A DNA stretch of 51,034 nt from Glycomyces sp. L485 (GTDB lineage Bacteria; Actinomycetota; Actinomycetes; Mycobacteriales; Micromonosporaceae), in contig NZ_JAKZEW010000032.1 in NCBI RefSeq assembly GCF_022548875.1, positions 1-51,034 on the forward strand. Reading direction: 5' to 3'. The notes beneath the pieces were generated by a model. It was not told where the DNA came from. It worked only from the letters and a program-made list of their open reading frames with translations, and ran no database searches. Below, piece after piece: positions 18,349-38,763 of this stretch (positions within the stretch are counted from its first letter, which is position 1; every line of letters begins with the position of its first letter). The translations under genes were made by a program, and so were the position numbers.

Positions 18349-19707
18349 CTACACGCGGGTGTTCGGATTCGCGGGCGCGGCAGGGACGTATCCTCGGCGT
18401 TCGGCCTCCCATGACAGCTTCTCGTCCCAGTTGAACTTGATACTTGGACACGGCAGGTGCCCCTCCGTCCACAATTTCGGGCAGCTGCCGCCGCAAACGG
18501 GCAGGATGGGGCACGAGCTGCACTGCCATTCGCCCGCGGTCACCTGGGCGTACCAGTCGTCGAACTTGCCCGCCGGGCGAAGCGTGTTGCCGAGGCTCTC
18601 GACGGTGCCGATGATCTCGCTACTCCGGGGTCCGGGGACGAGGGGATGCTCTGAGCACGAGTACACTCGCTCGAGCGGGTCGATGAGCTCTCCCTTGCGA
18701 GTGGTGGCCAGGCAGGTCGCCGCTTTGGGCCGGTTCGGCATGCGGGGCACGCTGAACCCCAGTCGGTGCGCGGTCTCGTATGCGGCGATCTCCCAGGCGG
18801 CGAATTCTTTGGCCTGCAGTTCCACCGCTGAGACGTCATTGCCCCAGGAGTGGACGGGGGCGAGGTGGAGTTCGATGCGGCGGACCGCGAGGCCCGCGTG
18901 GGCCAGGTCGAACAGCAGGTTGTCGACCTCTTCGCGGTTTTCCCGGTCGACGTTGACGCGGACGCTGATCGCGAGGTCGGGTGCCATGCCGGAGCTCACG
19001 GTCTCCGCCAGGGCCTCCACGGTGGTGTCGAAGCTCCCCTTCCCGTTGCGTTTGTGGCGTCGGGCGTTGTGGATCTCGCGCGGTCCGTCTATGGTCACTT
19101 CGAGCAGTCGGACCCGGCATTCTTCGCTCAGTTCCGATATCTTGCCCGGTGTGAGCAGGCTGCCGTTGGTCACCAGAGCAGCGGAGTAGGTCTTTCCTAG
19201 ACGCTCCGCGGCCGCCACGATGCGAGCGCTCATCGTGGTGATCACCTTGTAGGCCAGCATCGGTTCTCCGCCGAACCAGGTGACCGAGGCTCCGTCGACT
19301 TGGGGCTGTTCGAGGACGCCGGTGATCCGACCGGTCATCCTGTCGACCCGGTTCCAGTTCACCGCGGTCTTGAAGTGCTCTTGGCCGCAGTAGTCGCAAT
19401 CCATGTTGCAGTATGAGGTTGGCATGACGGTGAACGTCCGGTTCCGGCTCTCCGCGGCGCGCTGCTCGAAGCCGGAGGTGACCGTCCGCAGCTCGTTCTC
19501 GTCCTCGGGGACGACCGCCGCGATGTCGCTCAGCGTGGGGGCGAGGTCGTGGTCGGACACGTCTTCGCCGTTCTCCAAGGCGGCGGCGACCGGCAGGGGA
19601 AGCGCGAACACCGTTCCGGTGCGTGTCGCGTAGGCGAATCGCACCTCGGCTCCCGCTGAATCGCGGTAGGTCTTCGAACCGATGAGCAGGTAGCGGCTTC
19701 GCTTCAT
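18349..19707 (-). CDS. Radical SAM/SPASM peptide-modifying enzyme
   Basis: The product has 452 residues from the ATG at 19707, which overlaps the stop of the preceding gene by 4 bp (ATGA). Residues 1-90 form a small leading domain. The radical SAM cluster motif C100-x3-C104-x2-C107 lies in TSYCNMDCDYCGQ, followed by VTWFGGEPML (SAM-binding GGEP) and VTIDGPREIHNARR. The C-terminus has a SPASM-type cysteine set (YSCSEHP, CSSCPILPVCGGSCP, CPSIKFN) for auxiliary Fe-S clusters, as in sactipeptide and other RiPP maturases. It should generate a 5'-deoxyadenosyl radical to cross-link or otherwise modify a peptide. It is the last gene of a four-gene operon that diverges from the peptide operon at 23477. 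Confidence 0.88.
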   Translation of the reverse strand: MKRSRYLLIGSKTYRDSAGAEVRFAYATRTGTVFALPLPVAAALENGEDVSDHDLAPTLSDIAAVVPEDENELRTVTSGFEQRAAESRNRTFTVMPTSYCNMDCDYCGQEHFKTAVNWNRVDRMTGRITGVLEQPQVDGASVTWFGGEPMLAYKVITTMSARIVAAAERLGKTYSAALVTNGSLLTPGKISELSEECRVRLLEVTIDGPREIHNARRHKRNGKGSFDTTVEALAETVSSGMAPDLAISVRVNVDRENREEVDNLLFDLAHAGLAVRRIELHLAPVHSWGNDVSAVELQAKEFAAWEIAAYETAHRLGFSVPRMPNRPKAATCLATTRKGELIDPLERVYSCSEHPLVPGPRSSEIIGTVESLGNTLRPAGKFDDWYAQVTAGEWQCSSCPILPVCGGSCPKLWTEGHLPCPSIKFNWDEKLSWEAERRGYVPAAPANPNTRV

Positions 19708-20543
19708 GGTTTCGTCCGTTCCGTGGAGAGGAATGACAGCACCGGGTCGGCGTCCCGATCGGCCCGGCCCGCCGGGGCCGGGAGGCGGAACTCCAGTGAA
19801 GTGACACCGCCGAGTGCGGACACCCGCCGGTCCCGGCTGTCGCTGGGTGAGCGGGTGAACACCGAATCGACTCTGGAGAGTCCGTGGTGTTCGAGCAGTC
19901 GGTTCAGGAACCGGTGCAGCACCACGTCGGTGCAGGAGACTTCGGTCGCTCTGCCGTCGCTCAGGAGAATTTCGACCGGGCTGCCGGCCAGCCGCCCGTC
20001 CATGCCCAGGTGCCTCGAGTAGGTGACGGCGGCATCGGCCACGAATCGTCCCTCGGCGACGCCGACTCCCGCTCGCCATCCGTACGGCGTGGGAGACAAG
20101 GGTATGCGGGAGGCGAGGGCCGCGCGTTCCCACGGTCCGGTGGTCTTCAGGCGCAGGTCCCCGCGGTGGAGCACGGCCGGTGGACGGGGCCCGCCGTCCG
20201 ACTCGGTCCCCCAGCCTGCAGGTGGTCCGGCCACCTGCATCGCTCCCGCGAGCCCTGGGACTCCCGGCACCGCCAGCGGGTCCTCACCGACCACCAACAG
20301 GTGCCACCGTCGGTGGCCCCGCCCGAGTCGAACCACCTCAGCGCCTTCGGCCGAGCGCCGCAGTTTCGGAACTGCCGGCGCGCCCGCGGTCCGCAGATAG
20401 GCCAGCAGCATCGCGGCCTCGGACTTCCGATCCGCCTCGAAGCCCACCACGACAGGGCTCCCGTCGAGCATCCCATGTCCCGCGCAGACCTCGAGCAGTC
20501 GAGCACAGGGGTCGCGAGGCTCCTCGCCGGCTGCGGTGTTCAT
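19704..20543 (-). CDS. Unknown protein in radical SAM operon, possibly M29/NicX-like
   Basis: The product has 279 residues from the ATG at 20543, overlapping its neighbours by 4 bp on both sides. No signal peptide or membrane helix is seen. The second half (RFVADAAVTYSRHLGMDGRL, SPVEILLSDGRATEVSC) is reminiscent of the region in M29 aminopeptidase/NicX-type proteins where a glycine-rich turn precedes a GPVxLxxxDGRVxxIxG strand. The resemblance is weak and I cannot point to metal ligands. The N-terminus (PVVVGFEADRKSEAAMLLAY) could be an alpha/beta domain. Position suggests a partner or processing factor for the adjacent radical SAM protein. Confidence 0.6.
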   Translation of the reverse strand: MNTAAGEEPRDPCARLLEVCAGHGMLDGSPVVVGFEADRKSEAAMLLAYLRTAGAPAVPKLRRSAEGAEVVRLGRGHRRWHLLVVGEDPLAVPGVPGLAGAMQVAGPPAGWGTESDGGPRPPAVLHRGDLRLKTTGPWERAALASRIPLSPTPYGWRAGVGVAEGRFVADAAVTYSRHLGMDGRLAGSPVEILLSDGRATEVSCTDVVLHRFLNRLLEHHGLSRVDSVFTRSPSDSRDRRVSALGGVTSLEFRLPAPAGRADRDADPVLSFLSTERTKP

Positions 20544-21889
20544 ACGCGCTCAGCTCCCGAATCCGAGACCGCCGGCGCGTCTTGCCCGCCCTCGGGGGCC
20601 TTCTTCAGGGCGTTGCGCAGCGGCCTGAACACGACCGCTCCGGCCGCGATCATGAACAGCGCGGCCACACCGTAGACCGTGTCGACGGTCGTGAATCGGA
20701 CCCCGGCGACCGTGGTGTCGAAGTCCGCTAGGACCGTGCCGGCGAGGACGCCCGTCACGGCCATGGCGGTGATGGACGTGGTGTAGGTCAGTGGGTTCAT
20801 TATGGAGTTGACCCTGCCGAGCAGGTGGTCCGGGACGATCTTCAGGACGAGCGGGCCGAGGATGGTGCTGACCATCCCGAGCGGCACCGCCGCGAGCATG
20901 AGGACGACCAGGGCCGGTATGAGCGCCGTCTGGCGGGAGTAGAGCAGAACCAGCAGTCCGATCGCCACCAGGCCCCAGCTGAAGACCTTGGCCTCGCCGA
21001 GTCTGCCGCTCACCCGCCCCGTCAGGAGGGCGCCCACGATCGTGCCCGCCCCCGCCGCGGCGGTGATCGTGCCGAGCCACGAGGCGTTCGTGGCCAGGTT
21101 GTCGGTGACGAAGAAGACTTCCAGGACGTTGAGCGCACCGATCCCGAACATGTAGACGCAGGTCCCGAGGATCAGGATGACCAAGGGTCGCATGGTGACG
21201 AAGAAGGCGAACCCCTCCTTGAGCTCGTTCCAGAAGCCTTGATGCGGGGTCCGCTCCGCAGGCTCGGCGGGCCGGAGCCGCACCGCCCACACGCACAGCG
21301 CGGAGACCAGGAAGGACACCGCGTTGATCCCGAGTGCCCACTCGACGCCGCTGGCGAAGAGGATGGGCGCCGCCAACGGGGGTGCCAGGATCGCGGCGGT
21401 GTTCGATGTGGCAGAGAACAGGCCGAACGCCCTGGGGCGGTCCGATTCGGGCACCGCTTGACCGATAACGGCAAAGCGGGCCGGATTGAAGAACTGCGCG
21501 GCGGAGTTGCTCAAGAACACCAGGAAGCAGATGGCGCTCAGCTGGGTCACCGCGGGCAGGTCGCCGCCGGTCACGGCGACGGCGAGCATGGCGAAGCTCA
21601 AGATCGCCTGCGCGAGGTTCGCCCAAATCATGATCGTGCGGCGATTCCACCTGTCCACGAAGACGCCGGCCAGCGGTCCCACCACGAGGATGGGTGCCGC
21701 CGCGGCGATCAGCACTGCCGACACCGCCGTCGGCGCCCAGGACTCCCCTCCGGCCACGACCGTCCCGACCCAGAGGACGACGGTGACGTCGAAGATGAGA
21801 TCGCCGACGATGGAGATCGCCTGGCCTGTCCACAGGAGCCGAAAGTTGCGATTGCTTCGGAGCCCTGTCCGCCTGTTCGCGGTCGTCAT
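20540..21889 (-). CDS. MFS exporter (MdtH/enterobactin-exporter-like)
   Basis: The product has 449 residues from the ATG at 21889, which overlaps the preceding gene by 4 bp. The N-terminus NRNFRLLWTGQAISIVGD and the loop GVFVDRWNRRTIMIW (motif A) are typical of 12-helix drug/siderophore exporters of the major facilitator superfamily. Many hydrophobic helices follow, with a short soluble C-terminal tail. It probably exports the product of the peptide locus or confers self-resistance. The substrate cannot be read from sequence. Confidence 0.85.
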   Translation of the reverse strand: MTTANRRTGLRSNRNFRLLWTGQAISIVGDLIFDVTVVLWVGTVVAGGESWAPTAVSAVLIAAAAPILVVGPLAGVFVDRWNRRTIMIWANLAQAILSFAMLAVAVTGGDLPAVTQLSAICFLVFLSNSAAQFFNPARFAVIGQAVPESDRPRAFGLFSATSNTAAILAPPLAAPILFASGVEWALGINAVSFLVSALCVWAVRLRPAEPAERTPHQGFWNELKEGFAFFVTMRPLVILILGTCVYMFGIGALNVLEVFFVTDNLATNASWLGTITAAAGAGTIVGALLTGRVSGRLGEAKVFSWGLVAIGLLVLLYSRQTALIPALVVLMLAAVPLGMVSTILGPLVLKIVPDHLLGRVNSIMNPLTYTTSITAMAVTGVLAGTVLADFDTTVAGVRFTTVDTVYGVAALFMIAAGAVVFRPLRNALKKAPEGGQDAPAVSDSGAERV

Positions 21890-22782
21890 GCCGCGGCCCT
21901 CCGCTCGCCGATGGCCGCGCCGAGCCACCCGTGCGGCGCGGGCCGGGAGAGCTGCCGTGCCGTCGCACGCGGGCTGGGGATCTCGCGGACCAGCGCGGTG
22001 AGGCGGTCGAACAGATGGGAGTCGTCGCGGTCATCTTGGGCGGGGTGCGGGGTCAGTGACCGCCGGAGTTCGGGATCGGCACCCGCCCTCCGCTCCAGTT
22101 CTCTCAGGACTTCGGGGAGCCAGGCTCTCGTGCGGACCCCGATACTCAGGTGGACCGAGGCCGATCCGCGCGCGGTTCCCGCATGCCAGTATCCCCGGGG
22201 GATGTACAGGCATTCGCCCTCATCGAGGTCGGTCTCGAGCACCGGCTCGGTGGTGCATTCGAGCACGGTCTGCCGGAGGGGATACGGCGCGGTCGGGGCG
22301 TGCAGCCGCCACGACTTGGAACCGTGAAGCTGCAGCAGGAACACGCTGTCCACGTCGTAGTGGAGCTTCACCCCGCTGTGTCCCGGCGGAGTGATGAAGA
22401 CGACGCAGTAGGTCTCGAAGCCCGTCGCTCGGGTGAACTCGTCGGCGAAGCGGGCCACGCCGGGACTGAAGGTCTGGACCTCCTCCAGCAGCACCGTACA
22501 ACCCGAGGAGAGGACCTCCGCCAAGCCGGAGGCGGTCGCGACCCGCTCCCTTGTCCTGCCGCCCCGCTCCCTGGGGTGGAAGATGCCGCCCCGTTCAGCC
22601 GCGCTGCCGTCCTCGAAGACCCGAAGCGATCGCTCGGGAACTCCTCTAGAGAGCATCGACTCGATCTCCTTCAAATCGAGGATGTCGGAGAAATCTCTGG
22701 TGACGGTGGTGAGCAGTGGCTTTTCGTCCCAGTATTCCATTAGCAAGTCCGGGTCGTCGGCGAGGGTCTTGAGTGGATCCAT
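21886..22782 (-). CDS. JmjC/cupin_4-type 2-oxoglutarate-dependent oxygenase
   Basis: The product has 298 residues from the ATG at 22782, with AAGGAAG upstream. The start MDPLKTLADDPDLLMEYWDE followed by KPLL resembles YcfD/NO66-type ribosomal oxygenases (cupin_4). The Fe(II) triad is visible as H141-x-D143 in KLHYDVDSVFLLQLHGSKSW and H200 in LYIPRGYWHAG. In RiPP pathways such enzymes hydroxylate side chains of the precursor. It is the first gene of the minus-strand operon cupin-MFS-unknown-radical SAM. Confidence 0.85.
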   Translation of the reverse strand: MDPLKTLADDPDLLMEYWDEKPLLTTVTRDFSDILDLKEIESMLSRGVPERSLRVFEDGSAAERGGIFHPRERGGRTRERVATASGLAEVLSSGCTVLLEEVQTFSPGVARFADEFTRATGFETYCVVFITPPGHSGVKLHYDVDSVFLLQLHGSKSWRLHAPTAPYPLRQTVLECTTEPVLETDLDEGECLYIPRGYWHAGTARGSASVHLSIGVRTRAWLPEVLRELERRAGADPELRRSLTPHPAQDDRDDSHLFDRLTALVREIPSPRATARQLSRPAPHGWLGAAIGERRAAA

Positions 22783-22972
22783 ATGCTTCCTTATGAACGG
22801 GGCGAAATCCGAGCCTTAAAGATGGCGACGAGTCACTTGAGAATTGGGCAGACTGAATCTTCGAATACGCATACCGCGCACTGCCGACGTGAGTTGATCC
22901 GTCATGCACCATCGCATTGTCGTTCTCGACGCATGACACACGGCGGAACCCCGATAGGCCCACTCGGTCTAC

Positions 22973-23164
22973 TTATACCCGCATGTGATCCAAGATACCG
23001 TCGGCGGCGACGCATGTCAACACCTCGTGAACGATGCCGCCTAGTCGCTCCACATCCGCCGCACCGCCGGCCGCGGCTCGATCCGGGATCTCTCGAATGC
23101 GCTGGTAGATGCGTTCGGCACCCGGTCGTATCCCCAGGTAGACCGGTTGCATTCGGTCCATAAT
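22973..23164 (-). CDS. Possible small protein between divergent operons
   Basis: An open frame of 63 residues from ATG 23164 (112 residues from ATG 23311) reads MDRMQPVYLGIRPGAERIYQ and is predicted to be helical. No convincing ribosome-binding site precedes any of its ATGs and no family is recognised. It lies in the AT-rich gap between the cupin gene and the peptide operon, and could be a small regulator or chance. Confidence 0.3.
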   Translation of the reverse strand: MMDRMQPVYLGIRPGAERIYQRIREIPDRAAAGGAADVERLGGIVHEVLTCVAADGILDHMRV

Positions 23165-23303
23165 CGCTGAAATCCGGCAATTCATCGAAATTTCTGTATT
23201 TTCGTATGCAGCCGCAAGAGCGCCAATGTATCCCTTCTGCCAATCAAGATCTATCAGCGACGATTCGCATCGTCCTGAATCTCCACATGAACATTGGCAA
23301 AGA

Positions 23304-23324
23304 ATGATCATGGAAATTGATCAT
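23304..23324. promoter_or_regulatory. Palindrome ATGATCA-N7-TGATCAT
   Basis: This is a perfect 7-bp inverted repeat with a 7-base spacer, 68 bp upstream of the putative -35 box. It is a candidate binding site for a dimeric regulator; the regulator is unknown. Confidence 0.45.
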
Positions 23325-23371
23325 CGCTCGCCATCGAGGAATTCGACAGCAAGCAGTCTTGGGAACCGGGA

Positions 23372-23393
23372 AATGCATCCATGTCGATGCATT
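23372..23393. promoter_or_regulatory. Palindrome AATGCATC-N6-GATGCATT
   Basis: A perfect 8-bp inverted repeat with a 6-base spacer whose right arm overlaps the first two bases of the -35 box TTGACC. It is a good operator candidate for control of the peptide operon. Confidence 0.5.
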
Positions 23394-23421: not shown

Positions 23422-23476
23422 CAATTGCGGCATGCCTCAGACGCACATCAATCACATGCGTAAAGGAGTCGTTCGG

Positions 23477-23617
23477 ATGCCAGACAAAGAACAGACCCCC
23501 GGCGAGGAAGAACTCGCCAAGGCCGAAGAAGACGTGGAAGGCCACGGAATCGAAGACGAGGACGAAGGCGACGCCGATGTTCTCGACGTCAACTTCGGCT
23601 GCAACAAGCTGCAGTAG
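23477..23617 (+). CDS. Candidate RiPP precursor peptide (46 residues)
   Basis: The ATG at 23477 is preceded by AAAGGAG at 23462-23468 with 8-nt spacing, the best ribosome-binding site in this operon; an in-frame ATG at 23432 has none. The peptide starts MPDKEQTPGEEELAKAEEDV, is very acidic for most of its length (E and D rich, with DVEGH at residues 19-23), and ends LDVNFGCNKLQ. This acidic leader with a short, neutral to basic tail containing one Cys, one Phe and two Asn is the layout of a RiPP precursor. It is followed by a strong hairpin and then by modification and protease genes. No known precursor family is recognised. Confidence 0.75.
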   Translation: MPDKEQTPGEEELAKAEEDVEGHGIEDEDEGDADVLDVNFGCNKLQ

Positions 23618-23666
23618 GCCGAACTAGGCGCAGGTGCGTCCCCGCATCAGCACCGTACGCCGTACG

Positions 23667-23706
23667 ACGGCGGGCTGCTCCTTCACCCCGAAGCGCAGCC
23701 CGCCGT
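23667..23706 (+). terminator. Strong hairpin between peptide gene and protease genes
   Basis: ACGGCGGGCTGC (23667-23678) and GCAGCCCGCCGT (23695-23706) form a perfect 12-bp stem with a 16-nt loop that can pair further (CTTC/GAAG). There is no U-tract after it. It may be a partial terminator or an RNA-stabilising element that raises expression of the peptide relative to the downstream enzymes. Confidence 0.55.
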
Positions 23707-23767
23707 CTGATCTGACGGCAGCGGCCAACGCCGTCCAGTACGCCGCCACGAAAGGGCGAACCAGTCC

Positions 23768-25024
23768 GTGCGAACCATGCCGTATTCACCTGCCCCGGAG
23801 ACCGCCCACTTCCTGGAGACGACCGGCGGCGCGAGCGCCGTCGTCGTCGCCCGACCCGGAGCGCGCGTCACCGCCCTCAGCATCCGGCTCTCCGTAGGAT
23901 CCTTCGACGACCCCGAGGGCCGCAATGGCACCACCCACCTGGTCGAGCACCTCCTGTACGGACCCAATCCCGGCTCGCAAGGGGGCAGCTTCCAAGTCGT
24001 CGAACACATGGGCGGCTTCGCGAACGCGAGAACCTCGGCGGAGCACACCAACTTCTACGCGGCGGTTCCGGCCGGACTGAGCTCGAAGCTGTTCGCGCGA
24101 GAGGCCGACCGCATGACGGACACCTTGGATTGGCTGACCTCCGCATCACTCGAGCACGAGAAGAACGTGGTCCTCAACGAGATCCGGCAGCGGCGCGGCA
24201 GGAAGGAACTGCTGGCCGCTCAGGAGCACGTCATGAGCTCGTGGTACGGCCCGGGAGCCCCGGCATCCTTCCTCTCCATGGGAACGCCCTCGCACCTCCA
24301 ACGTATCGAGCCGGAGTCATGCGTCGCGTTCCTGGAGCACCGCTACCGCCGAGCACGCGTCGCCGTATCGGCGGTCGGCGACGTCGAGCCCGAGCAGATG
24401 TCGGCACTCGCCGAGTCGCTAGGGACTCGGTTCGACGGCTCCTCGGCATCGGCAGCGGAACGCCTGCCGATCAATCCCGGTCCCCGGTGCGTCGCCGCTC
24501 ATTCCGTCGACGGCGGTGAACGAGCCGTCCTCGGCGTTCCGCTCCCGGCCTACAAGATCCACTCCTTCGAGCATCTCCGCCTCGCCACCCTGCTGTTCGC
24601 GGGAAACGACAGGTCCGACCGACTGCGGCAGAGCATCGTCCCCAAGTGCGTCGCCACAGTGCGGGCCAAGCTCCTGCCGCGGTCCAGGACGCATTCGATC
24701 GGCCTGATCGAACTCGTGCCCGATTCCGGGAGCGATGCCCGGCACGCGGTCGCATCGTTCGACCTCGCCTTGCGGCAGCTCGCCGACGCACCCGATCTGG
24801 AGGACCGCATCGAACGAGTGTGGCCGACCTATCGCACGGAGTGGTTGCAGGGCGACGACGATCCCGTCGGCCTGGCCAACGGCCTGTCGCATGCCCTGCT
24901 CACGGGCGACGAAGCCGCCTACCTGGAGTGGCCCGACACCCCGATGCCCGGCGCAGAGGAGATCCGCGGCGCACTGCAGACCTGGCAGAGGGGGGAGCGA
25001 TGCGAGATCCTGTTCGCCCCGTGA
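23768..25024 (+). CDS. M16-family zinc peptidase, active subunit
   Basis: The product has 418 residues from the GTG at 23768; an in-frame ATG at 23777 is the alternative. The inverted zinc motif H57-x2-E60-H61 lies in THLVEHLLYG, and the third ligand E138 lies in VVLNEI. This gives the exact HxxEH-x76-E spacing of M16 peptidases. The fold continues with FANARTSAEHTNFYAAVP, typical of the family (G-x-xNAxTxxExTxY). There is no signal peptide, so it acts in the cytoplasm. In PQQ and several other RiPP pathways M16 enzymes trim the leader. It overlaps the next gene, a second M16 protein without the zinc motif. Confidence 0.9.
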   Translation: MRTMPYSPAPETAHFLETTGGASAVVVARPGARVTALSIRLSVGSFDDPEGRNGTTHLVEHLLYGPNPGSQGGSFQVVEHMGGFANARTSAEHTNFYAAVPAGLSSKLFAREADRMTDTLDWLTSASLEHEKNVVLNEIRQRRGRKELLAAQEHVMSSWYGPGAPASFLSMGTPSHLQRIEPESCVAFLEHRYRRARVAVSAVGDVEPEQMSALAESLGTRFDGSSASAAERLPINPGPRCVAAHSVDGGERAVLGVPLPAYKIHSFEHLRLATLLFAGNDRSDRLRQSIVPKCVATVRAKLLPRSRTHSIGLIELVPDSGSDARHAVASFDLALRQLADAPDLEDRIERVWPTYRTEWLQGDDDPVGLANGLSHALLTGDEAAYLEWPDTPMPGAEEIRGALQTWQRGERCEILFAP

Positions 25025-26247
25025 ACACCCGCGACACCGAGGAGTCCGGCACTCCGTTCACGATGACGCCGATCGATTTCGGTCCGCACACGGTGCACCT
25101 GCTCGACGCGCCCGAACATCGGCGGATCGCCGCCGCCCGGCTGTTCTGGCGAGTGGACAACCCCTCCGACGCCCGCTACGCCATCGCTCTCGACTGGGCG
25201 CTGGGCCGCTCCCGTCGACTCGATTCCCTTGGCGCACAATGGTCGGTGGAATCCCATCTCGGCTCCATCGCAGTAGCGGTGGCCGCGCCGAGCGAACTGA
25301 TCTGGGACGCCGTCGACGAGTGTCGCAGGGCGATCGTCGAGCCGCCGCTTGAGCGCTCCCTGTTCGACCGCGCCCGCAGCATCCGGCGGGCCGGCGCGGC
25401 GAGATCGGAGCGACGACCGGTCGACGCGGCCCGCAGGCACGTGCGTGCGATGCATTTCCACCCGGAATCCAACGTCATAGACCACCCCGACGGCAGCGCT
25501 CGCGCCATCGAAAACCTTACCGCCGACGATGCGAGGCAGGCGATCGCTGCACTCGAGACACGACATGCCTGGAACCTGATAGGCGTCGGACTGACTCACG
25601 GCGAGTCCGAGGACTGGCTGTGTTCGCTGCCGTCCGTGAAACAGAGCGAACCCTCATCGGTCGCTCGACCGGACAGGGCGAAACCGCGATCGACGCTCCA
25701 CGAACCCCGCTGCACCCAAGACCTGCTCGCCGTCGCCGCCGTGGTCCACCTCGAAGACGCCGAACGGTTCGCCGTGGCGCACATCGTCTGTCACGGCCTG
25801 GCGGGCTGGAGCGGAGCCGCCTGGCACCGCCACTTCCGCGAGGAGTTGGGCGCGGCCTACGAGATGGAGTCCGAAGTGATCTGCGCGCGCCACGGGTCGG
25901 AAGCAATCGCCATGACGAGAATCGTCACATCCGTCGACCCCCGACGGTCGGCCGAGATCGCCCGGATCGCCGAGAGCGACATCGCCCGGATCGCCCACCT
26001 GCCTCGCGAGCAGTGGGAGATCCACCGGAAGCAATTCGCCCGCTCGCTGGACACGCAGGTTCGCGACGCCGAAAAGCTCTTGTCGTGGATATCGCCCTTC
26101 ATCCAGGCCGGCATGTCCGCCGCGTCGTTCGAACGCTTCCTCGGCATCGTCTTCCAGTCGTTCCCCGGAGCGATCCACTCCCATCTCGAGGCGTTCGCCC
26201 GTCAAGCGTCCATGATCCGTATGACCAGCATGGAGGACTCGCAGTGA
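25000..26247 (+). CDS. M16-family protein, inactive partner subunit
   Basis: The product has 415 residues from the ATG at 25000, which lies directly after GGGGGAG and overlaps the upstream M16 gene by 25 bp; GTG 25021 is an alternative. No HxxEH motif is present. The C-terminal half has the M16 hallmark HRHFREELGAAYEMESEVI (L-R-E-E-x-G-x-x-Y-x-V-x-S). M16B peptidases often work as a heterodimer of a zinc-binding subunit and a catalytically dead subunit that helps to hold substrate. The adjacent genes fit that arrangement. Confidence 0.8.
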   Translation: MRDPVRPVNTRDTEESGTPFTMTPIDFGPHTVHLLDAPEHRRIAAARLFWRVDNPSDARYAIALDWALGRSRRLDSLGAQWSVESHLGSIAVAVAAPSELIWDAVDECRRAIVEPPLERSLFDRARSIRRAGAARSERRPVDAARRHVRAMHFHPESNVIDHPDGSARAIENLTADDARQAIAALETRHAWNLIGVGLTHGESEDWLCSLPSVKQSEPSSVARPDRAKPRSTLHEPRCTQDLLAVAAVVHLEDAERFAVAHIVCHGLAGWSGAAWHRHFREELGAAYEMESEVICARHGSEAIAMTRIVTSVDPRRSAEIARIAESDIARIAHLPREQWEIHRKQFARSLDTQVRDAEKLLSWISPFIQAGMSAASFERFLGIVFQSFPGAIHSHLEAFARQASMIRMTSMEDSQ

Positions 26248-28425: not shown

Positions 28426-29217
28426 ATGCCCGATATCCCATTCGCACATGCCTCCAAGGGCCGCAGCGGAACCCGGAGTGCCCTCCCCGTTCGGGAACCC
28501 TTGGACCGGTCATGGGCCTGGGGATCGGCGACCGGCCGCGGAGTCGAGGTGTGCGTCATCGACAGCGGGGTGGAGGCGGAGCTGCTCGACGACGGCTCCG
28601 CTTTCACCATGGAACAGCGCGGCGACGAATGGCACGTCGTCCCCGACGCGCCGAACGACACCGCCGGTCACGGGACGGCCTGCGCCGGGATCATCCGGTC
28701 CCTGGCTCCGGACTGCCGCTTGACCAGCGTCCGGATCCTGACCGGCAACCTCCGGTCCAGCGGGCAGGCGCTCGCCGCGGCCCTGTCGTGGGCGATCCAG
28801 GAGCGATTCCAACTCATCAACCTCAGCCTGTCCACCCGCAAGCCCGATATCAAGGAGCAACTGCACGACATGGCCGACACCGCCTGGTACTCAGGCGTCA
28901 CGCTGGTCACCGCGGCACACAACAGTCCGGTCATCAGCTATCCGTGGCGCTTCCCCTCGGTGCTGTCGGTCGGATCGCACGCGGTAGCAGACGCTGAGCA
29001 CCTGCAATGGAACCCCACCCCTCCGGTGGACTTCTTCGCCTACGGCGTCGACGTCCCCGTCAACTGGATCGGCGGCGCCACCCGCTCAGTGTCGGGGAAC
29101 AGCTTCGCCGCTCCGCACGTCACCGGCATGTGCGCGCGCATCCTCGAGGCGCATCCGAAATTCGGAACGTCCCAACTGCGGATCGTCCTGTCCTGTATCG
29201 CCGACAATCTGGAATGA
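28426..29217 (+). CDS. Cytoplasmic subtilisin-like (S8) serine protease
   Basis: The product has 263 residues from the ATG at 28426, chosen because GAGAAAGGA lies just upstream; a GTG at 28381 that overlaps the previous stop would add 15 residues. The catalytic triad is complete: D46 in VCVIDSGVE, H82 in DTAGHGTACAGI, S226 in GNSFAAPHVTG, with N166 in AAHNS as oxyanion residue. It has no signal peptide and no propeptide domain, unlike secreted subtilases, so it is probably an intracellular maturation protease. Similar short S8 proteins remove leaders in several RiPP clusters. It is 41 bp downstream of the helical protein and 7 bp upstream of the GAF gene. Confidence 0.88.
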   Translation: MPDIPFAHASKGRSGTRSALPVREPLDRSWAWGSATGRGVEVCVIDSGVEAELLDDGSAFTMEQRGDEWHVVPDAPNDTAGHGTACAGIIRSLAPDCRLTSVRILTGNLRSSGQALAAALSWAIQERFQLINLSLSTRKPDIKEQLHDMADTAWYSGVTLVTAAHNSPVISYPWRFPSVLSVGSHAVADAEHLQWNPTPPVDFFAYGVDVPVNWIGGATRSVSGNSFAAPHVTGMCARILEAHPKFGTSQLRIVLSCIADNLE

Positions 29218-29224
29218 GAGCGGC

Positions 29225-29809
29225 ATGATGAATCAACATGGTGAGATCCTCAGGTCCACCGTCAGGCTCGCGCGCCTCGCGTTCTCCGCCGCGGCGGCTT
29301 CCGTATTCCTGTACGACGAGGAGCGCGGGATGTTGGTCTTCGAGGCGTCTTCCGGAATCGGCGAGGAATTCGTCCTGGGAGCAGCCATCGCCCCGGACGC
29401 CGGAGTGGCGGGCTGGGTGGCCAACACCGGCGAGTCCGCGATCATCCGCGGTGCCGCATCCGACCCCCGATTCGACACCGCCTTCGCCCGCGGCACCGGC
29501 TTCGTTCCCGATGTCCTGATGGCGGCCCCGGTCGAGTTCGAAGGCGAGGTGCTGGGCGTCCTCGAAGTGCTCGATCCCAAGTCGGACACGATCGGGGGCA
29601 CCTCGGCGGTCGACCTGCTGACCGAGCTGGCCGGCCAGTGCGGAGCCGCGCTCGCCCTGATCCTCCAGGACCGCGCCGCGCAGCGCCGCCGCGCGGAACC
29701 GGACGGGGCGGTGGAACGGCTGGCCCAGGTTCTGGACCGCCTGAACCCCGCCCAGGAGACGGCCGTCAACGACCTGTTCGAGGTCATCGAGCGGCTGACC
29801 GTGAGGTGA
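29225..29809 (+). CDS. GAF-domain protein
   Basis: The product has 194 residues from ATG 29225 or 29228. Residues about 5-150 form a single GAF domain (SAAAASVFLYDEERGMLVFEA, VAGWVANTGESAIIRGAASD, FDTAFARGTGFVPDVLMAAPV, VLGVLEVLDPK), followed by an Arg/Glu-rich C-terminal helix. No output domain is attached. GAF domains bind small ligands or cofactors. Its place in front of the two radical SAM genes is unusual for a pathway operon and suggests either signal sensing together with the cyclase-like regulator at 32581 or a chaperone-like role. Confidence 0.8.
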   Translation: MMNQHGEILRSTVRLARLAFSAAAASVFLYDEERGMLVFEASSGIGEEFVLGAAIAPDAGVAGWVANTGESAIIRGAASDPRFDTAFARGTGFVPDVLMAAPVEFEGEVLGVLEVLDPKSDTIGGTSAVDLLTELAGQCGAALALILQDRAAQRRRAEPDGAVERLAQVLDRLNPAQETAVNDLFEVIERLTVR

Positions 29810-29812
29810 ATC

Positions 29813-30832
29813 GTGCATCTGGCAGACCTCCTCTCCTTGCGAACCGTGCCCGCCGCCGGAGTGCTCGTGTCGCTCACCGACCGCTGCCCGCTGAGCTGCG
29901 CTCATTGCTCGACCTCGTCCAACCGCGGTGCTCCTCAGTTCGGCGAGGAGCCGTTCTTGGCCTTCAGCGGCACCTGGACCGACGAGTCCCATCCGGAGGT
30001 CGTATTCCTGTCCGGCGGTGAGCCGTTGCTGCGCCCCGGCCTGGTCCGGCGCTTGGCCGCGCGCGGTAGGGCGTGCGGCGCGGCCACCGCGGTGCTGTCC
30101 GGCATGTATTTCTGCCGGTCCGGCGGCATTCCTCCACCGATCGAGCGAGCCATCCGGGCGGTGGACCACTTCTCGGCCAGCATCGACGTCTTCCACGAGC
30201 GTGAGGTGCCGAGGACCGACGTCTTCGCCGCACTGCACACCGTCAGGAGCTGGGGTGTGGAGGTGAGCCTCCATACGGTCGGAGCCCGCGGGCACGATCC
30301 GTATCTGCGCGATCTGGTCGATCGGATCAGAGACGAGTTCGACTCCGAAGTGCCGGTGCTGGTCGCTTCGCTCCGGTCGGCGGGCCGTGCCGCCGAATGG
30401 GCCCCCCGACACGACGACGTCCTCTCCGTCGGCCCCTGCGAGTTCGCCTCCTGGCCACTGATCGACTCGGACGGGACGATCTTCGCGTGCTGCCAGGGGT
30501 CGATGCTGCGGCGGCTGCGGCCCCCGCACCTGGTGCTCGGCAACGCCGCCGACACCGCCTGGCGGACCGTCCGCGACCGGGTACTGACCAGCCCGCATCT
30601 GCGAAGCGTCCGCACCATCGGACCGATCGGGACGGCCTCCGCGGCGGGACTGCGCGACTCGGGGGGCATCTGCGGCACCTGTGTCGGTCTGGACTCCGCC
30701 GAAAGCCTGCCGTCCGACCGCTTCCTGACCTCCGCTGAGCGCCTCGTACCCGCTATTCCGGCGCGAACCCTCGCCGCCCGGTGGGGTGCGGGACCCTACG
30801 CGGACGCGGTGGAGTGGGGGCGGTCCCGATGA
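29813..30832 (+). CDS. Radical SAM enzyme, first of a related pair
   Basis: The product has 339 residues from the GTG at 29813 with GAGGTGA upstream. The cluster motif C25-x3-C29-x2-C32 is in LTDRCPLSCAHCSTSS, followed by VVFLSGGEPLLRPG (GGEP) and SASIDVFHE. The C-terminal part has FACCQGS and GICGTCVGLDSAE, cysteines that may bind an auxiliary cluster. It is clearly related to the next gene (LTDRCPxxCxHCS, GGEP, S-x-D-x-F-H, CGxC near the end), so the two arose by duplication or act as a pair. The family is the class of short radical SAM proteins found with natural-product peptides; the reaction cannot be predicted. Confidence 0.85.
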   Translation: MHLADLLSLRTVPAAGVLVSLTDRCPLSCAHCSTSSNRGAPQFGEEPFLAFSGTWTDESHPEVVFLSGGEPLLRPGLVRRLAARGRACGAATAVLSGMYFCRSGGIPPPIERAIRAVDHFSASIDVFHEREVPRTDVFAALHTVRSWGVEVSLHTVGARGHDPYLRDLVDRIRDEFDSEVPVLVASLRSAGRAAEWAPRHDDVLSVGPCEFASWPLIDSDGTIFACCQGSMLRRLRPPHLVLGNAADTAWRTVRDRVLTSPHLRSVRTIGPIGTASAAGLRDSGGICGTCVGLDSAESLPSDRFLTSAERLVPAIPARTLAARWGAGPYADAVEWGRSR

Positions 30833-31764
30833 GTGGGCCGACCCATGCGGAGTGCGAGGCGCTGCGCCGGACGCCGGGCGCGACCGCCGTACTCTTCCTC
30901 ACGGATCGATGCCCAGTCGGCTGCGACCACTGCTCGGTGGGCTCGCTGCCCCGAAGCCCTCGCATCACCGACTGGAACTTGTTCACCGGCATAGTCGACG
31001 AGCTCGGATCGCGCGAAGGCCTGCAGTTGGTCGCCCTCACCGGCGGCGAGCCGTTCGCCGAGCGCCGCGGACTGCAACTGGCCACGGAGGCGCTGACGGC
31101 GAACGGGAAGACCACCGCCGTCTTCACCAGCGGCCACTGGGCCGGCCCTCGCATTCCCCTGTGGATTCGCCGCGTACTCCAGGCGACCGGAACCGTGTAC
31201 CTGAGCACCGACTCCTTTCATGCCGCCAGTGTGAAGCCTCCGACCGTCGAGGCCGCGGCCCGAGCCGTGCTGGAGTCGGACTGCACCTTGGTGGTCCAGG
31301 TCGCGGGGAGCCGGGAGGAAGCCGACCGCTGGGCGGACCGGATTCCAGAGGCGGAGGTGCACCGCGTGCCGATCCTGCCCTATGGGCGGGGACGCCTGCT
31401 GCGGCAAGGGATGGCGGAACGGCCCGTCGCCGACCTGGGCGCATGCCATCTGCTCAACTCGCCGACCATCCGCTACGACGGAACGGTCACCGCCTGCTGC
31501 AACGAAGAGGTGATCATAGGAGGCGGCCCCGACCGGCTGCGCCGCCAAGCGACCCGGCCCGAGGAACTGGGCGGGATTCTCGACGGCCTCGCCGCCGACC
31601 CCCTGCACCGGATCCTGCGGCGGACCGGTCCGGCAGCCCTGGCGTCCCTGCTCACCCAGGATAGGGCGACGCTCTGCGGTGCGTGCTGGACCCTCCAGGA
31701 CGCGAGGAGCCGGCAGCGGCACATCTCGGTGCTGTTCGACCTGCTCGAAAGCGAGGCCACATGA
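30829..31764 (+). CDS. Radical SAM enzyme, second of a related pair
   Basis: The product has 311 residues from the ATG at 30829 (ATGA overlap). The motif C28-x3-C32-x2-C35 is in LTDRCPVGCDHCSVGS; VALTGGEPFAERRG is the SAM-binding segment and YLSTDSFHAASV matches the partner. Conserved cysteines occur in TACCNEEV and LCGACWTLQDA near the end. It lies between its paralogue and a haem-oxygenase-like gene, all with 4-bp overlaps, which suggests a fixed ratio of the proteins. Confidence 0.85.
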   Translation: MSGPTHAECEALRRTPGATAVLFLTDRCPVGCDHCSVGSLPRSPRITDWNLFTGIVDELGSREGLQLVALTGGEPFAERRGLQLATEALTANGKTTAVFTSGHWAGPRIPLWIRRVLQATGTVYLSTDSFHAASVKPPTVEAAARAVLESDCTLVVQVAGSREEADRWADRIPEAEVHRVPILPYGRGRLLRQGMAERPVADLGACHLLNSPTIRYDGTVTACCNEEVIIGGGPDRLRRQATRPEELGGILDGLAADPLHRILRRTGPAALASLLTQDRATLCGACWTLQDARSRQRHISVLFDLLESEAT

Positions 31765-32402
31765 TAGAAGCACTGTTCATGCTGCTTCGTCCCCAGCTCA
31801 CCAGGCAAGCCGCGCTCATGTGGACGGCCGAGCCCGCCGTGGACCTCTACGGTGCCTGGCTGCGGTCGAGCTACCACGCCATGCGCCACACTCCGGAGCT
31901 GCTCCGAGCGGCGCTCGACCAATGCTCCCGGCGCGACGATCCGACCTCGCGGCAACTGGCGCCCTATCTCCACTTTCAACTCGTCGAGGAGAGCGGGCAC
32001 CACGAGTGGGCCCTGTCGGATCTCCAAGCCGTATACGGAAAGCCGGTGTCAGCGGGACCCGAACCGCCCGCCGTGGCGAACATGGTGGGGCGCCAGCGAG
32101 CCCTCCTACTGCGCCATCCCGTCGCACTCCTGTCCCACATCGCGGCGCTGGAGTCGACACCCCCCACCATGGCGCTCGTGCGCGACCTGCGAAGCCGTAC
32201 CGGACTGCCGGACTCGGCGTTCCGAACGCTGATCGGACACTCAGAATTGGACGTCGACCACGGCGACGTACTCACTCGACTACTCAAGGAACTGGATCCG
32301 GAACCGGCGCTCCAGCAACTGATACGACGCAGTCTGATCGCATCCGTCACCGACCAGATCTCCGTCATGCACTCCATCCGCGACATCAGGGGGAAACCAT
32401 GA
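31761..32402 (+). CDS. Haem-oxygenase-fold diiron oxidase candidate (HDO-like)
   Basis: The product has 213 residues from the ATG at 31761 (ATGA overlap). It is all helical, with the motifs EESGHHEWALSDL and GHSELDVDHGDVLTRLL. The pattern E-x2-x-H...H-x3-D-x2-H is that of the iron-containing redox enzyme / haem-oxygenase-like diiron family; PqqC and TenA share the fold without iron. Such enzymes cleave C-C bonds or desaturate or hydroxylate amino acid units in natural-product pathways. It could act on the peptide after the radical SAM step. Confidence 0.72.
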   Translation: MIEALFMLLRPQLTRQAALMWTAEPAVDLYGAWLRSSYHAMRHTPELLRAALDQCSRRDDPTSRQLAPYLHFQLVEESGHHEWALSDLQAVYGKPVSAGPEPPAVANMVGRQRALLLRHPVALLSHIAALESTPPTMALVRDLRSRTGLPDSAFRTLIGHSELDVDHGDVLTRLLKELDPEPALQQLIRRSLIASVTDQISVMHSIRDIRGKP

Positions 32403-32587
32403 GCAACCCGGACCGCTTTGCACAACTGGGCCTCGATCGAACACAACTCAGCGACCGGCAGGCCGAGCAGATCCTCGCGCTCGACGACGAGGAGTGGAAC
32501 ATGCTGCTGCACCTCAAGGACCGGCTGGACGACGGGCTCGACGTCGAGGGGCACGAGGACATGATCGGAGGAGGAGCGGTATGGTGA
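32399..32587 (+). CDS. Second small acidic peptide (62 residues), possible precursor
   Basis: It starts at ATG 32399, overlapping the oxidase gene by 4 bp. The sequence begins MSNPDRFAQLGLDRTQLSDR and has a predicted helix with LALDDEEWNMLLHLKDRLDD. It then has DVEGH at residues 48-52, as in the peptide at 23477, and ends EDMIGGGAVW. It could be a second precursor or a leader-binding adaptor. Caution: the bases for the final GGGAVW also form the GGAGGAGGAG ribosome-binding site of the next gene, so that tail may be constrained by translation rather than chemistry. Confidence 0.65.
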   Translation: MSNPDRFAQLGLDRTQLSDRQAEQILALDDEEWNMLLHLKDRLDDGLDVEGHEDMIGGGAVW

Positions 32588-35346
32588 CGAACTACGCCGA
32601 CTGCCTCCAATGCGGCACAAGCAACCCGCAAGTCGCCCGATTCTGCATGGCATGCGGCTCCGACCTCGGCGCCGACGGCGACCACGCGGTCATGCGCTTC
32701 GTCACCGCGGTCTTCTGCGACATCGCCGGCTCCACGCAGCTGAGCCAGCAGTACGATCCACAGGTCTGGAACACACTCCTCGACGAGTACTTCACGGGCA
32801 CCAAGACGGCCCTCACCTCGACCGGGGGCAGGGTCGAGAAGTTCATCGGAGACGCGGTGGTCGCCGTGTACGGTGCGGTCGCGGCCGAAGGCGACGAGGC
32901 GCCTCGCGCAGTCATGGGAGCCGCCTCGATTCGCGACCAGTTGGAGCACTTCAACAGGGAGACCGCCGCGCGGTACGGTGCGCACTTCCACACCAGGACC
33001 GGCATCGCCTCGGGACGGGTAGTGACCGCGGGCCGCGACTCATCGTTCGCCATCGGCTCGGTCATGAACAAGGCGGCACGACTCCAATCGAGCGCTCCAT
33101 TGGACGGCATCGGCATCGACGTGCGGACCTGGTTCCTCGTGCGAGACCGCTTCCACACCGAGGAACTCGCTCCCGTGCGGGCCAAGGGCTTCGATCATCC
33201 GCTGCGGGTATGGTCGGCGGACCCAGCGCGGCCTCCCGCTCCCGCTCCGCAGCAGATCTTCGTGAACCAGAAACCGCTCTTGGAGACGGTCACGGGAAGG
33301 ATCGATCCGGCAGGGCGCGAATCCGAGCCGCTCCACCTCCATGTCTTCGGAGACATGGGGGTAGGTAAGAGCAGTTTCCTGCTCCAACTGGAACACCTGC
33401 TCCGGCGGGCCGGTCTCCGGACCGTGCCGATGCAGTGCCCTCGGGGACCGGACGAGGAGCTGTGGCAACTCCGCGAGATCGACGAACAGCTCGGCTCGGC
33501 GGAGGGCCTCCCCGTCACGTCGAGAATGTTCTCCGTGCGAGAACTCCAGTGGCAGGTGAGAACGCGCCTCTCCCGGATGTCGACCGGCGACGCCGTTGTC
33601 TACCTGGTCGACGACGCCGACCTGCTGGCCTCGTCGGTGAGCGACTTCTTGACCGCCGCAGTCCTGTCCAGACCGGGTGCGGTGCTCGTGACCTCCGGAT
33701 CCGCCCCCTTGCCAAATGTCGAATCGGTCGCCATCCCGCCTCTGGACGATGCGCACGCCGGCGAGTTCGTCGAACTGCTCCGGCCGGAGCTCGAACTCCA
33801 TTCGCACACCGCCGACGCGACGGAGGTGATCGAACGCGCCCATGGCAATCCGCTCTACATCGAGCAACTCGCGGCGCTGGCCGAAAGCGAGCGCGACCTG
33901 CTCCCACCGGCCGCCGAGGCAGTATTCGGCGCTAGAATCGCACCGTTGACCAGAGAAGAGCGAATGCTGCTCGCGGCCGCCTCGATCCTCGGTATCGACC
34001 GGGCATCCGACCTCTTCACTGTGATGACGGATCTCGACGACGAGGCCGTATTCCAGACATTCGACAGGCTGCAGCAGGCGGCATTCGTTGGCAACCGCAT
34101 GATCGGCGAGGTCTCCTATCAGCACCTGACCGTCAAGGACAGGATCGAGCTGAGGATCCGGATCGCCGCGACTCTGGCGGCGATGAGCCGGACCGACCCC
34201 CAGCTGCTGCTGCTCGCCGTGCAGAACGCGGTGCAGGCGTTCGAGGACGCGGTGAACTCCGAACCGGACCGCGTCCCCGAGGCGCGGGCTCTGGCGGTCG
34301 GTTCCCTGCTCGGTGCCGCACGGTATGCGATCGCGATCACCGAGCCGGTCAAGGCACTCGACTTCGCTGAGCAGGCGATACAGATCGCTGAGGAGGGCGA
34401 GGAGACCGCCTCTCATGAGGAGGCGGTCTCGCTCCATTGCTACGCGCTGGCGGCCGTCGGCCGGCTGGAACAGGCCCGGAAGCTCGCGAGGCGGACGCGG
34501 ACCTCGGAGGCCAACGCTTCGGCTGCCGCGCATCTTGCCGTGACGGCGCTGGTACTGGGTGTGGGAGATCCCAGTGAGGCCAGAAGGAAGGTGGAGCAGG
34601 CATCCGATCCCATGGCTTCCATGCGATTGACCACCTGGGACGGAATCCTCATGGCCAGGAAGGGCGACTATCCGGGCGCGGTGGCGCTGCTCTCCAGCGC
34701 GCATCATGTGGCGCGCGAGTATAGCTACGGCCTGGGGACAGCCGAAGTGTACGGCAATCTCTCGCTGTTCACTGCCCTCGACGATCGCCCGGTCATGGAG
34801 GCATTGGACGCCTTGGAGGTCCTGACCGAGGAGGTGCGGGACACGCCTACGCTTCGTGCGCTCATCGAATGCTCGAAGGCGCTGGTCCAGGGGTTCGAGG
34901 GAAGCACCGAAGCGGCTCTGGACCTGCTCGAACGGGTCGAACGACTGTTCACCGACATTGGCTACCAGCCGGGCCGGGCGCAGATCGCACAATTCAGAGG
35001 CAACATCCACTTTCTGTCCGGAGACATGGCCAAGGCGGCGGGGTGGTGGCGTGCGTCCGCCGCAGGCAACGCGGCAATGGCTAACTTCGCACAGCAGGAG
35101 CGGGACCTGGTCAAGTCCTGGCTGCTGCGGCCCGACGGCGCTCCGCCGGACGTCTCGGCGCTCGAGCGGGCAGACGACTGGGAGGCGCGGCTGCTCTTGT
35201 TCTTGATCCGCGGGAGGGCAGATGAGACGTCGGCCGCTCAGCGGTCTGCCGAGTCGGAGATCCTGATCCCGGTACGAGGGCGCGCCGCGATGTTCGCTCG
35301 ACGGCTTTGGGAGCACTCAACGGAGCGGCTCGGTCAGATTCCTTAG
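32581..35346 (+). CDS. Regulator: zinc ribbon, class III cyclase domain, ATPase, TPR
   Basis: The product has 921 residues from ATG 32581, behind GGAGGAGGAG and overlapping the peptide gene by 7 bp. Residues 8-25 form a zinc ribbon (C8-x2-C11, C22-x2-C25). Residues about 38-215 are a class III nucleotide cyclase domain with metal ligands D47 (FCDIAGST) and D91 (EKFIGDAVVAVYG) and an N-K-A-A-R-L transition-state motif at 163-168, so it may be active. A P-loop GDMGVGKSS at 257-265 starts an AAA/STAND-type ATPase, and the C-terminal half is TPR-like helices. Similar proteins are multi-domain signalling regulators in actinomycetes. It closes the plus operon. Confidence 0.8.
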   Translation: MVTNYADCLQCGTSNPQVARFCMACGSDLGADGDHAVMRFVTAVFCDIAGSTQLSQQYDPQVWNTLLDEYFTGTKTALTSTGGRVEKFIGDAVVAVYGAVAAEGDEAPRAVMGAASIRDQLEHFNRETAARYGAHFHTRTGIASGRVVTAGRDSSFAIGSVMNKAARLQSSAPLDGIGIDVRTWFLVRDRFHTEELAPVRAKGFDHPLRVWSADPARPPAPAPQQIFVNQKPLLETVTGRIDPAGRESEPLHLHVFGDMGVGKSSFLLQLEHLLRRAGLRTVPMQCPRGPDEELWQLREIDEQLGSAEGLPVTSRMFSVRELQWQVRTRLSRMSTGDAVVYLVDDADLLASSVSDFLTAAVLSRPGAVLVTSGSAPLPNVESVAIPPLDDAHAGEFVELLRPELELHSHTADATEVIERAHGNPLYIEQLAALAESERDLLPPAAEAVFGARIAPLTREERMLLAAASILGIDRASDLFTVMTDLDDEAVFQTFDRLQQAAFVGNRMIGEVSYQHLTVKDRIELRIRIAATLAAMSRTDPQLLLLAVQNAVQAFEDAVNSEPDRVPEARALAVGSLLGAARYAIAITEPVKALDFAEQAIQIAEEGEETASHEEAVSLHCYALAAVGRLEQARKLARRTRTSEANASAAAHLAVTALVLGVGDPSEARRKVEQASDPMASMRLTTWDGILMARKGDYPGAVALLSSAHHVAREYSYGLGTAEVYGNLSLFTALDDRPVMEALDALEVLTEEVRDTPTLRALIECSKALVQGFEGSTEAALDLLERVERLFTDIGYQPGRAQIAQFRGNIHFLSGDMAKAAGWWRASAAGNAAMANFAQQERDLVKSWLLRPDGAPPDVSALERADDWEARLLLFLIRGRADETSAAQRSAESEILIPVRGRAAMFARRLWEHSTERLGQIP

Positions 35347-38758: not shown

Positions 38759-38763
38759 CGGTG

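Follow-up and report, generated by a model that had tools for sequence, protein, structure and literature searches.

The DNA analyzed here (the window) is a stretch of 51,034 nucleotides, contig NZ_JAKZEW010000032.1 of Glycomyces sp. L485 (GCF_022548875.1), in which positions 18349–35346 hold 16 genes arranged as two divergent operons. The locus is well supported as one of the type that makes ribosomally synthesized and post-translationally modified peptides (RiPPs) and, as read from its gene content, is a common cassette (right) joined to a rare tailoring module (left), with two peptide genes, pep46 and pep62. The right-hand unit comprises an S8 subtilisin-like protease, a GAF protein, two radical SAM enzymes (rSAM2 and rSAM3), a heme-oxygenase (HO)-like oxidase, pep62 and a cyclase/AAA/TPR protein; the left-hand unit comprises pep46, a radical SAM/SPASM enzyme (rSAM1), SagB, JmjC, TPR, 279-residue and MFS proteins and a pair of M16 peptidases. 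On balance, we lean toward two RiPPs, pep46 being modified by the tailoring module and pep62 by the cassette, with a shared DVEGH motif as a common site that S8 would most likely cut. The argument draws on gene content, the conservation of pep46 in one genome, the spread of the cassette, module exchange, and the sharing of the motif together with its S8 association, all of them read from sequence.

The right half was followed with a profile of three rSAM2 proteins through a collection with one genome per species (84,980 species); the best 80 of 116 places, together with loci L020 and L021, make up 82 loci (81 distinct, as L020 equals L047). By tblastn, rSAM2 is found in all 82, the oxidase in 79, the cyclase protein in 73, S8 in 68, GAF in 67 and rSAM3, as a separate gene, in 12; these counts are lower bounds because several loci are cut by contig ends. 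The hosts are mostly Streptomyces and also include Catellatospora, Phytohabitans, Planobispora, Mesorhizobium, a Symploca and a Chloroflexota bin. Judged by this distribution, the right half of the locus is no one-off gene set; it is a widespread cassette, the peptide of which has already been named by NCBIfam. A literature search, with scarce coverage of subscription journals, found no paper on this cassette.

Elsewhere, the cassette neighbors LanKC modules or glycosyltransferase/oligopeptidase/rSAM modules: of the 82 fetched stretches, 46 contain LanKC, 64 a SARP regulator, 21 a prolyl oligopeptidase, and 19 each a glycosyltransferase and an rSAM1-like maturase. With three merged labels, at least six switches of module type can be counted on the rSAM2 tree, which was built by a quick method with SH-aLRT (approximate likelihood-ratio test) support only, 17 rows left out and L020 excluded as a duplicate of L047. 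Finer labels, with 14 unlabelled rows dropped, yield nine changes, some dependent on flank length, and six is the figure reported. The window groups with L027 and L026 (support 97), and there L027 forms a pair with L026, itself a LanKC locus (95); placement inside this group is unsure because the window row has a long branch (0.96).

The cassette peptide, pep62 (32399–32587, plus strand), had been overlooked by the original prediction, which saw a single peptide gene. Its 62 residues form a leader-like domain, DVEGH and the tail EDMIGGGAVW, and it passes the cut-off of the NCBIfam model NF045560, aroma_sacti_dom (36.8 vs. 30 bits). A profile of pep62-type peptides (hereafter helpers) finds one in 78 of the 82 loci, and the 79 peptides end in Phe (73), Trp (5) or Tyr (1); the L021 helper scores 74.7 bits with NF045560. 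In a sample of 296 genomes of the phylum, NF045560 matches five genomes, four of them above cut-off, and in an equal-size sample, apparently the same draw, the window oxidase matches six, including all five; beside the sixth oxidase a similar small peptide was read, to which the helper profile has no match. Viral contigs contained no match to pep62, and a full-text literature search for “aroma-sacti” returned neither a paper nor a published family definition. Four short contigs from other families of the phylum (L022, L023, L024 and L025) carry an HO-like oxidase without a radical SAM match; a helper-like peptide is found in L022, L024 and L025, and a cyclase/AAA/TPR protein in L022, L023 and L025.

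The other precursor, pep46 (23477–23617, plus strand), encodes 46 residues and is preceded by the Shine-Dalgarno sequence AAAGGAG; the peptide carries DVEGH, ends in LDVNFGCNKLQ and matches no Pfam or NCBIfam model. It had been described as an acidic peptide with a Cys-containing tail that opens the plus-strand operon, and so it is. The original prediction named lack of conservation of this frame as grounds for refutation; the frame is kept in the single homologous locus found, that of Streptomyces avicenniae NRRL B-24776 (L027). There, reading of the intergenic DNA between divergent operons reveals a 48-residue peptide, 54% identical to pep46 over aligned columns, which shares EEDVEGHGI and LD(V/I)NFGC and terminates at the cysteine; pep46 is therefore more than a chance frame.

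Around this peptide, the left module minus the M16 pair is, by similarity and placement, repeated in L027, the one other locus found. SagB is 56% identical to its counterpart, the MFS protein 52%, rSAM1 52–53%, JmjC 41% and TPR 33–34%; the 279-residue protein has a counterpart in the same place with 37% identity overall (45% over 59 residues by tblastn). L027 also has the whole cassette, in a different operon arrangement. Neither M16 protein has a tblastn match in the L027 locus or its 19-kb left flank, and the pair, counted as a member of the set in the original prediction, thus falls outside the conserved set. In the S. avicenniae genome, M16A has two distant matches on other contigs (28–29% identity), as it does in two other Streptomyces searched, and M16B has none in a search that lacked a positive control. 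The module is otherwise scarce: against the 82 loci, tblastn matches SagB, TPR and the 279-residue protein once (L027), JmjC three times and the more general rSAM1 19 times, and finds pep46, M16A and M16B in none. A class sample searched with SagB as the marker returned three distant matches in the other 295 genomes, and the 20-kb loci around these hold no other gene of the set, except for a weak MFS match in L018. In a 394-genome class sample the rSAM1 profile recognized only the window genome at E ≤ 1e-50 (0 of 393 others), indicating that modules of the window type are uncommon among the genomes sampled.

The division of labor between the two peptides is informed by three distant loci, L049 (Mesorhizobium), L080 (Symploca) and L037 (Chloroflexota), which encode rSAM2, rSAM3, the oxidase and a helper-type peptide and lack S8, GAF, the cyclase protein and the motif; the L037 contig is only 6 kb long and uninformative as to S8. 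Such gene content links pep62 with these three enzymes, and S8/GAF with the motif. Across other phyla, too, rSAM2 and rSAM3 go with a peptide of the pep62 type, which makes it less likely that pep46 is the first substrate of either.

A single product is conceivable, with pep62 as a helper (a trans-acting leader, chaperone or adaptor) and all three radical SAM enzymes and the oxidase acting on pep46. The identical motif in both peptides would suit it, as would the nearly invariant helper tail across Streptomyces loci and the resemblance of the leader-like domain of the L021 helper to the StsA-type sactipeptide leader (NF045559, 32.2 bits, cut-off of 75 not reached). However, no motif-bearing partner peptide was found in L037, L049 or L080, although each has the helper, rSAM2, rSAM3 and the oxidase, and in L022 and L024 a helper-like peptide stands beside the oxidase on short contigs with no radical SAM match. 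We consider a single product unlikely, if worth keeping in view.

The two-RiPP reading turns on the motif. In the 16 window proteins (5369 residues), [DE]V.[AG]H occurs twice, once per peptide and both times as DVEGH, and the two peptides share DVEGH in the window genome and S. avicenniae alike; the pattern frequency in shuffled peptides is 0.0042 for pep46 and 0.0025 for pep62. Helpers of other loci mostly have EVQAH, usually with nine residues between its His and the end. The motif is present in the helper at all 67 loci that have both S8 and a detected helper. In 11 loci a helper is present and S8 was not found: eight bear the motif and three (L037, L049 and L080) do not. The eight reach the contig end, or nearly so (L036 stops 1.2 kb short), and S8 may therefore lie off the contig, as it may in L037.

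Motif-bearing partner candidates were found in 65 of the 82 loci, or 64 once a spurious one in L087 was removed by eye (extra candidates in L026, L071, L075 and L094 were judged spurious in the same way), and most have exactly one Cys after the motif. The residue at the A/G position agrees between helper and partner in 62 of 62 loci with both, the extra candidates in L071, L075 and L094 set aside; Gly is found only in the window, L026 and L027. Among the forms of the motif are EVEAHS, ahead of LanKC-type cores, and, for the glycosyltransferase/oligopeptidase type, IEVVAHSED. In multi-core precursors it is repeated with the cores: L055 (9403–9684) has three tandem single-Cys cores with the motif before each, L079 (16654–16923) has three with the motif before the second and third, and L070 (9305–9469) has a copy between two core repeats. 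L089 (3470–3754) and L099 (3444–3674) encode a second motif-bearing peptide with the core AGCCLVNHSSEL, placed where the MFS reading frame ends or immediately behind it; in L093 and L100 a similar motif tail seems to be fused to the MFS protein.

The reader of the motif can be narrowed down. In L049 and L080, motif-less helpers stand beside rSAM2, rSAM3 and the oxidase, leaving S8 or GAF as the cassette reader; the oxidase also occurs beside motif-less peptides on short contigs, in L022 together with the cyclase protein. The motif could be a docking site for GAF, or for another cassette protein, rather than a cleavage site. The matching distributions of S8 and GAF (68 and 67 of 82) and the motif in SARP regulators (see below) are consistent with docking; where a precursor has several cores, the repetition of the motif along with them suits a processing site, though docking would fit too. 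One protease cutting both peptides would be the simpler reading, S8 being similar to QhpE (see below), and we rate docking as unlikely.

Several observations nevertheless weigh against two RiPPs released by a common S8 cut. Only L049 and L080 lack S8 on a sufficiently long stretch, so that two lineages carry the motif-S8 link; the GAF distribution equals that of S8, the sole difference, L053, being a locus that runs to the contig end. Seventeen of the 82 loci have no motif-bearing partner candidate, quite apart from the spurious one in L087. The G-type agreement may represent one event because the window, L026 and L027 form a clade, and the L026 SARP has Ala at this position, not Gly. In LanKC-type precursors the motif precedes the core by about 20 residues, so that one cut there would leave leader residues. 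As far as the comparisons reach, the pep46 family has two members, and the product and its modifications are predicted here from genes.

As a control, a small-open-reading-frame scan gave 0.105 motif candidates per kb inside cassette spans vs. 0.043 outside, only a 2.5-fold difference; many of the outside candidates are SARP C-termini, and others are true precursors further out. Chance copies of the motif exist as well. The window genome contains the 15-base DVEGH pattern nine times (the reversed pattern twice), of which three are on this contig: in the two peptides and at 37284–37298. The motif is present at 14 places in 71 cyclase-type proteins and at five in 56 S8 proteins; examined with a slightly wider pattern, the S8 occurrences are the catalytic DV(A/C)GHGT region, and those in cyclases are remote from the C-terminus, several of them belonging to a conserved EV.AH stretch.

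With this balance, the two-RiPP reading supposes the following, in which the chemistry throughout, the choice of protease and the role as a signal are all inferred. The C-terminal core of pep46, around LDVNFGC, would be modified by rSAM1 (which might introduce a crosslink or the like), by the SagB-like dehydrogenase and by JmjC; the M16 pair, which may replace M16 proteins encoded elsewhere, would trim the product, and the MFS protein would export it. rSAM2, rSAM3 and the HO-like oxidase would convert pep62 into a short peptide that ends in an aromatic residue. This peptide may serve as a signal, a partner or a chaperone, and its sensors may be the GAF protein and the cyclase/AAA/TPR protein, whose domains suggest a sensing or regulatory role. 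DVEGH would be the processing site of both precursors for the shared S8.

A further extension, on which the two-RiPP reading does not depend, comes from the pattern of the motif in SARP regulators. Near the C-terminus, 55 of the 64 cassette-adjacent SARPs carry [DE]V.AH in the form [DE]V(T/S/C/M/I)AH (e.g., L020:1484–3382); among the nine without it, some sequences are cut or gapped and others, including those of L036, L044, L054 and L084, plainly lack it. Among 30 SARPs from Streptomyces genomes (the query's own included), 22 are readable by the pattern in this region: of the 11 most similar to the query, ten have the motif and the eleventh is unreadable, whereas 12 ordinary SARPs have PGRYRFHDL there. 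S8 might then process precursor, helper and SARP, one cut setting both maturation and expression while tailoring enzymes are exchanged around a fixed chassis. Neither the window nor L027 has a SARP match, and we regard this circuit as tentative and, at present, doubtful.

The halves might also be two unrelated clusters that adjoin by chance, the operon being a mere join. Transposase-like genes to the left, an NRPS-like cluster to the right and the rarity of SagB, TPR and the 279-residue protein (one of the 82 cassette loci) and of the M16 proteins (none) could be taken this way; yet S. avicenniae has both halves in a different gene order, DVEGH is common to both peptides in both genomes, and modules of other loci share the motif with their helper, all of which makes a chance join quite improbable. 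It is just as hard to credit that pep46 gives rise to a redox cofactor in the way that PqqA, a peptide, gives rise to pyrroloquinoline quinone (PQQ): an M16 pair, a SPASM-type radical SAM and an oxidase of the HO fold are reminiscent of PqqF/G, PqqE and PqqC, but the scores are low (PqqE 21.0 of 381 bits, PqqF 34.2 of 320 bits), the oxidase tracks the pep62-type peptide across phyla, and S. avicenniae keeps the exporter and not the M16 pair.

The window, contig 39 of a 4.4-Mb genome of the same class as the comparison genome G039, contains the genes that had been named (three radical SAM enzymes, M16 pair, S8, SagB, JmjC, HO-like oxidase and exporter) at the expected positions and with intact active-site motifs: CX3CX2C in all three radical SAM enzymes, HxD in JmjC, and D/H/S in S8. 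The minus-strand operon consists of JmjC, MFS, the 279-residue protein and rSAM1. The NO66/MINA-like 2-oxoglutarate oxygenase JmjC (21886–22782; PF08007, 80.9 bits) has the histidyl hydroxylases NO66 and MINA as its nearest PDB relatives, and is followed by the predicted MFS exporter (20540–21889; PF07690, 138.7 bits), the 279-residue protein (19704–20543) and rSAM1, a 452-residue radical SAM/SPASM-type peptide maturase (18349–19707; PF04055, 50.7 bits). The 279-residue protein belongs to no known family, with no Pfam or NCBIfam match and no PDB profile match better than E 0.096. Its assignment as an M29 peptidase, suggested by its C-terminal half, is unsupported: PF02073 was found in none of three genomes (the window genome, S. 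avicenniae and G039).

On the plus strand, pep46 is followed by an RNA hairpin (23666–23707, 13-pair outer stem), M16A, M16B, SagB, TPR, S8, GAF, rSAM2, rSAM3, the oxidase, pep62 and the cyclase protein. The tight coupling claimed for this operon holds from M16A onward, where some neighbors overlap and no gap exceeds 41 bases; at its start, pep46 and M16A are separated by 159 bases. This gap contains the strong hairpin (region 23618–23740, z = −5.25 vs. shuffles), no T-run terminator was called in it, and the hairpin is a possible attenuator. M16A (23777–25024; PF00675, 50.9 bits) is of the catalytic type, with HLVEH at the expected HxxEH position and PDB match 3amj, “zinc peptidase active subunit” (E 2.8e-13). 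Its partner M16B (25000–26247; PF05193, 17.9 bits, cut-off of 23 not reached) lacks HxxEH, has the R...Y feature as REELGAAY, and has no M16 chain among its PDB matches. SagB (26244–27317) passes its cut-off (TIGR03605, 86.7 vs. 78.4 bits) and, according to family scans, has no YcaO partner among the locus proteins; the TPR-like protein (27314–28384) does not pass (TPR_10, 23.3 vs. 27.5 bits).

The cassette begins with the QhpE-like S8 protease (28426–29217; PF00082, 85.9 bits) and a stand-alone GAF domain protein (29228–29809; PF13185, 54.9 bits). rSAM2 (29813–30832) has C-x3-C-x2-C and scores just below the PF04055 cut-off (27.0 vs. 29.5 bits), and rSAM3 (30829–31764) scores 37.1 bits with the same model. 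The oxidase (31761–32402; PF14518, 41.0 bits; profile match to 3dde, an HO-like fold) is proposed to be a diiron enzyme. Downstream of pep62 lies a protein that combines a zinc ribbon, a class III nucleotide cyclase, AAA and TPR (32581–35346; PF00211 35.2 bits and TPR_12 31.3 bits, both above cut-off).

The flanks are described mainly from their translations. Transposase-like genes directly to the left (15352–18200) suggest island movement, and further out, a single 3091-residue open frame (4285–13560) probably encodes a large surface or secreted protein. To the right (35648–51009), thioesterase, 4'-phosphopantetheinyl transferase and nonribosomal peptide synthetase (NRPS)-like genes probably form a separate cluster.

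If the two-RiPP reading is correct, one conserved cassette serves lanthipeptide-like, radical-SAM-made and SagB/JmjC-made peptides, S8 is the likely leader protease for these loci, and peptide processing may be linked to regulation. Several types of RiPP precursor would then share a handle, i.e., a small acidic peptide with [DE]V.[AG]H, a single-Cys core and an aroma-sacti neighbor; of six precursors tested, including the S. avicenniae peptide, none matched an NCBIfam model above cut-off.

Among known systems, the claim that the locus lies outside the PQQ, mycofactocin, sactipeptide and thiazole/oxazole types stands, all equivalog and domain tests being below cut-off or without match. PQQ biosynthesis likewise employs a peptide precursor, a SPASM-type radical SAM, an M16 pair and an HO-fold oxidase; the window differs in having two peptides and PqqE/PqqF scores far below cut-off, with no PqqB or PqqD model among the NCBIfam matches listed. 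For mycofactocin, rSAM2 scores 11.6 bits against a maturase cut-off of 265, and rSAM1 has no such model among the matches listed (25 of 65 families). No YcaO domain, as expected of thiazole/oxazole-modified microcins (TOMM), is present in the locus proteins. Sactipeptides and ranthipeptides were rejected on scores of 89.9 of 340 bits (rSAM1, PapB model) and 16.1 of 625 (rSAM2, StsB). No daptide family turned up in general family scans, in which the daptide set was not searched by name.

QhpE, described by NCBIfam as a subtilisin-like serine protease, acts in the maturation of another peptide. S8 resembles it (NF049966, 125.3 bits, cut-off of 165 not reached), and rSAM1 weakly resembles TIGR03906, the model for the radical SAM enzyme in the maturation of quinohemoprotein amine dehydrogenase (Qhp) (72.9 bits, cut-off of 453 not reached). 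A Qhp assignment was rejected: both scores are below cut-off, and family models matched by the 16 proteins include no subunit of an amine dehydrogenase. rSAM1 is similar in domain layout and partial score to the TIGR04463, geopeptide and CefB SPASM maturases but falls below each cut-off, the best being TIGR04463 (201.8 vs. 525 bits). Fusions of RiPP recognition element (RRE)-like domains to PF08007 JmjC proteins, with bacterial relatives in RiPP-like contexts, are described in PMC12710340.

The closest family for pep62 is NF045560, with which it shares, besides a score above cut-off, a C-terminal aromatic residue and a neighboring HO-like oxidase; that model spans 52 positions, covering the leader-like part only, and the window has in addition another precursor with a tailoring set of its own. 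As for class III lanthipeptides, the locus proteins contain no RamC_N, kinase or LanC-like domain, and LanKC gave no tblastn match in the window (E 1e-3). In LanKC-type precursors of other loci (L020:7503–7664 and similar), a single Cys precedes the Ser residues (e.g., NCISVLSVV), the reverse of the class III core order S-x2-S-x2-5-C given in PMC8960859. According to the same source, M16 heterodimers remove class III leaders in Firmicutes, and the window pair, an HxxEH subunit (HLVEH) with an R/Y subunit, fits that scheme (PMC8960859). The cassette itself stands beside LanKC in 46 of the 82 loci, with precursors that bear the motif.

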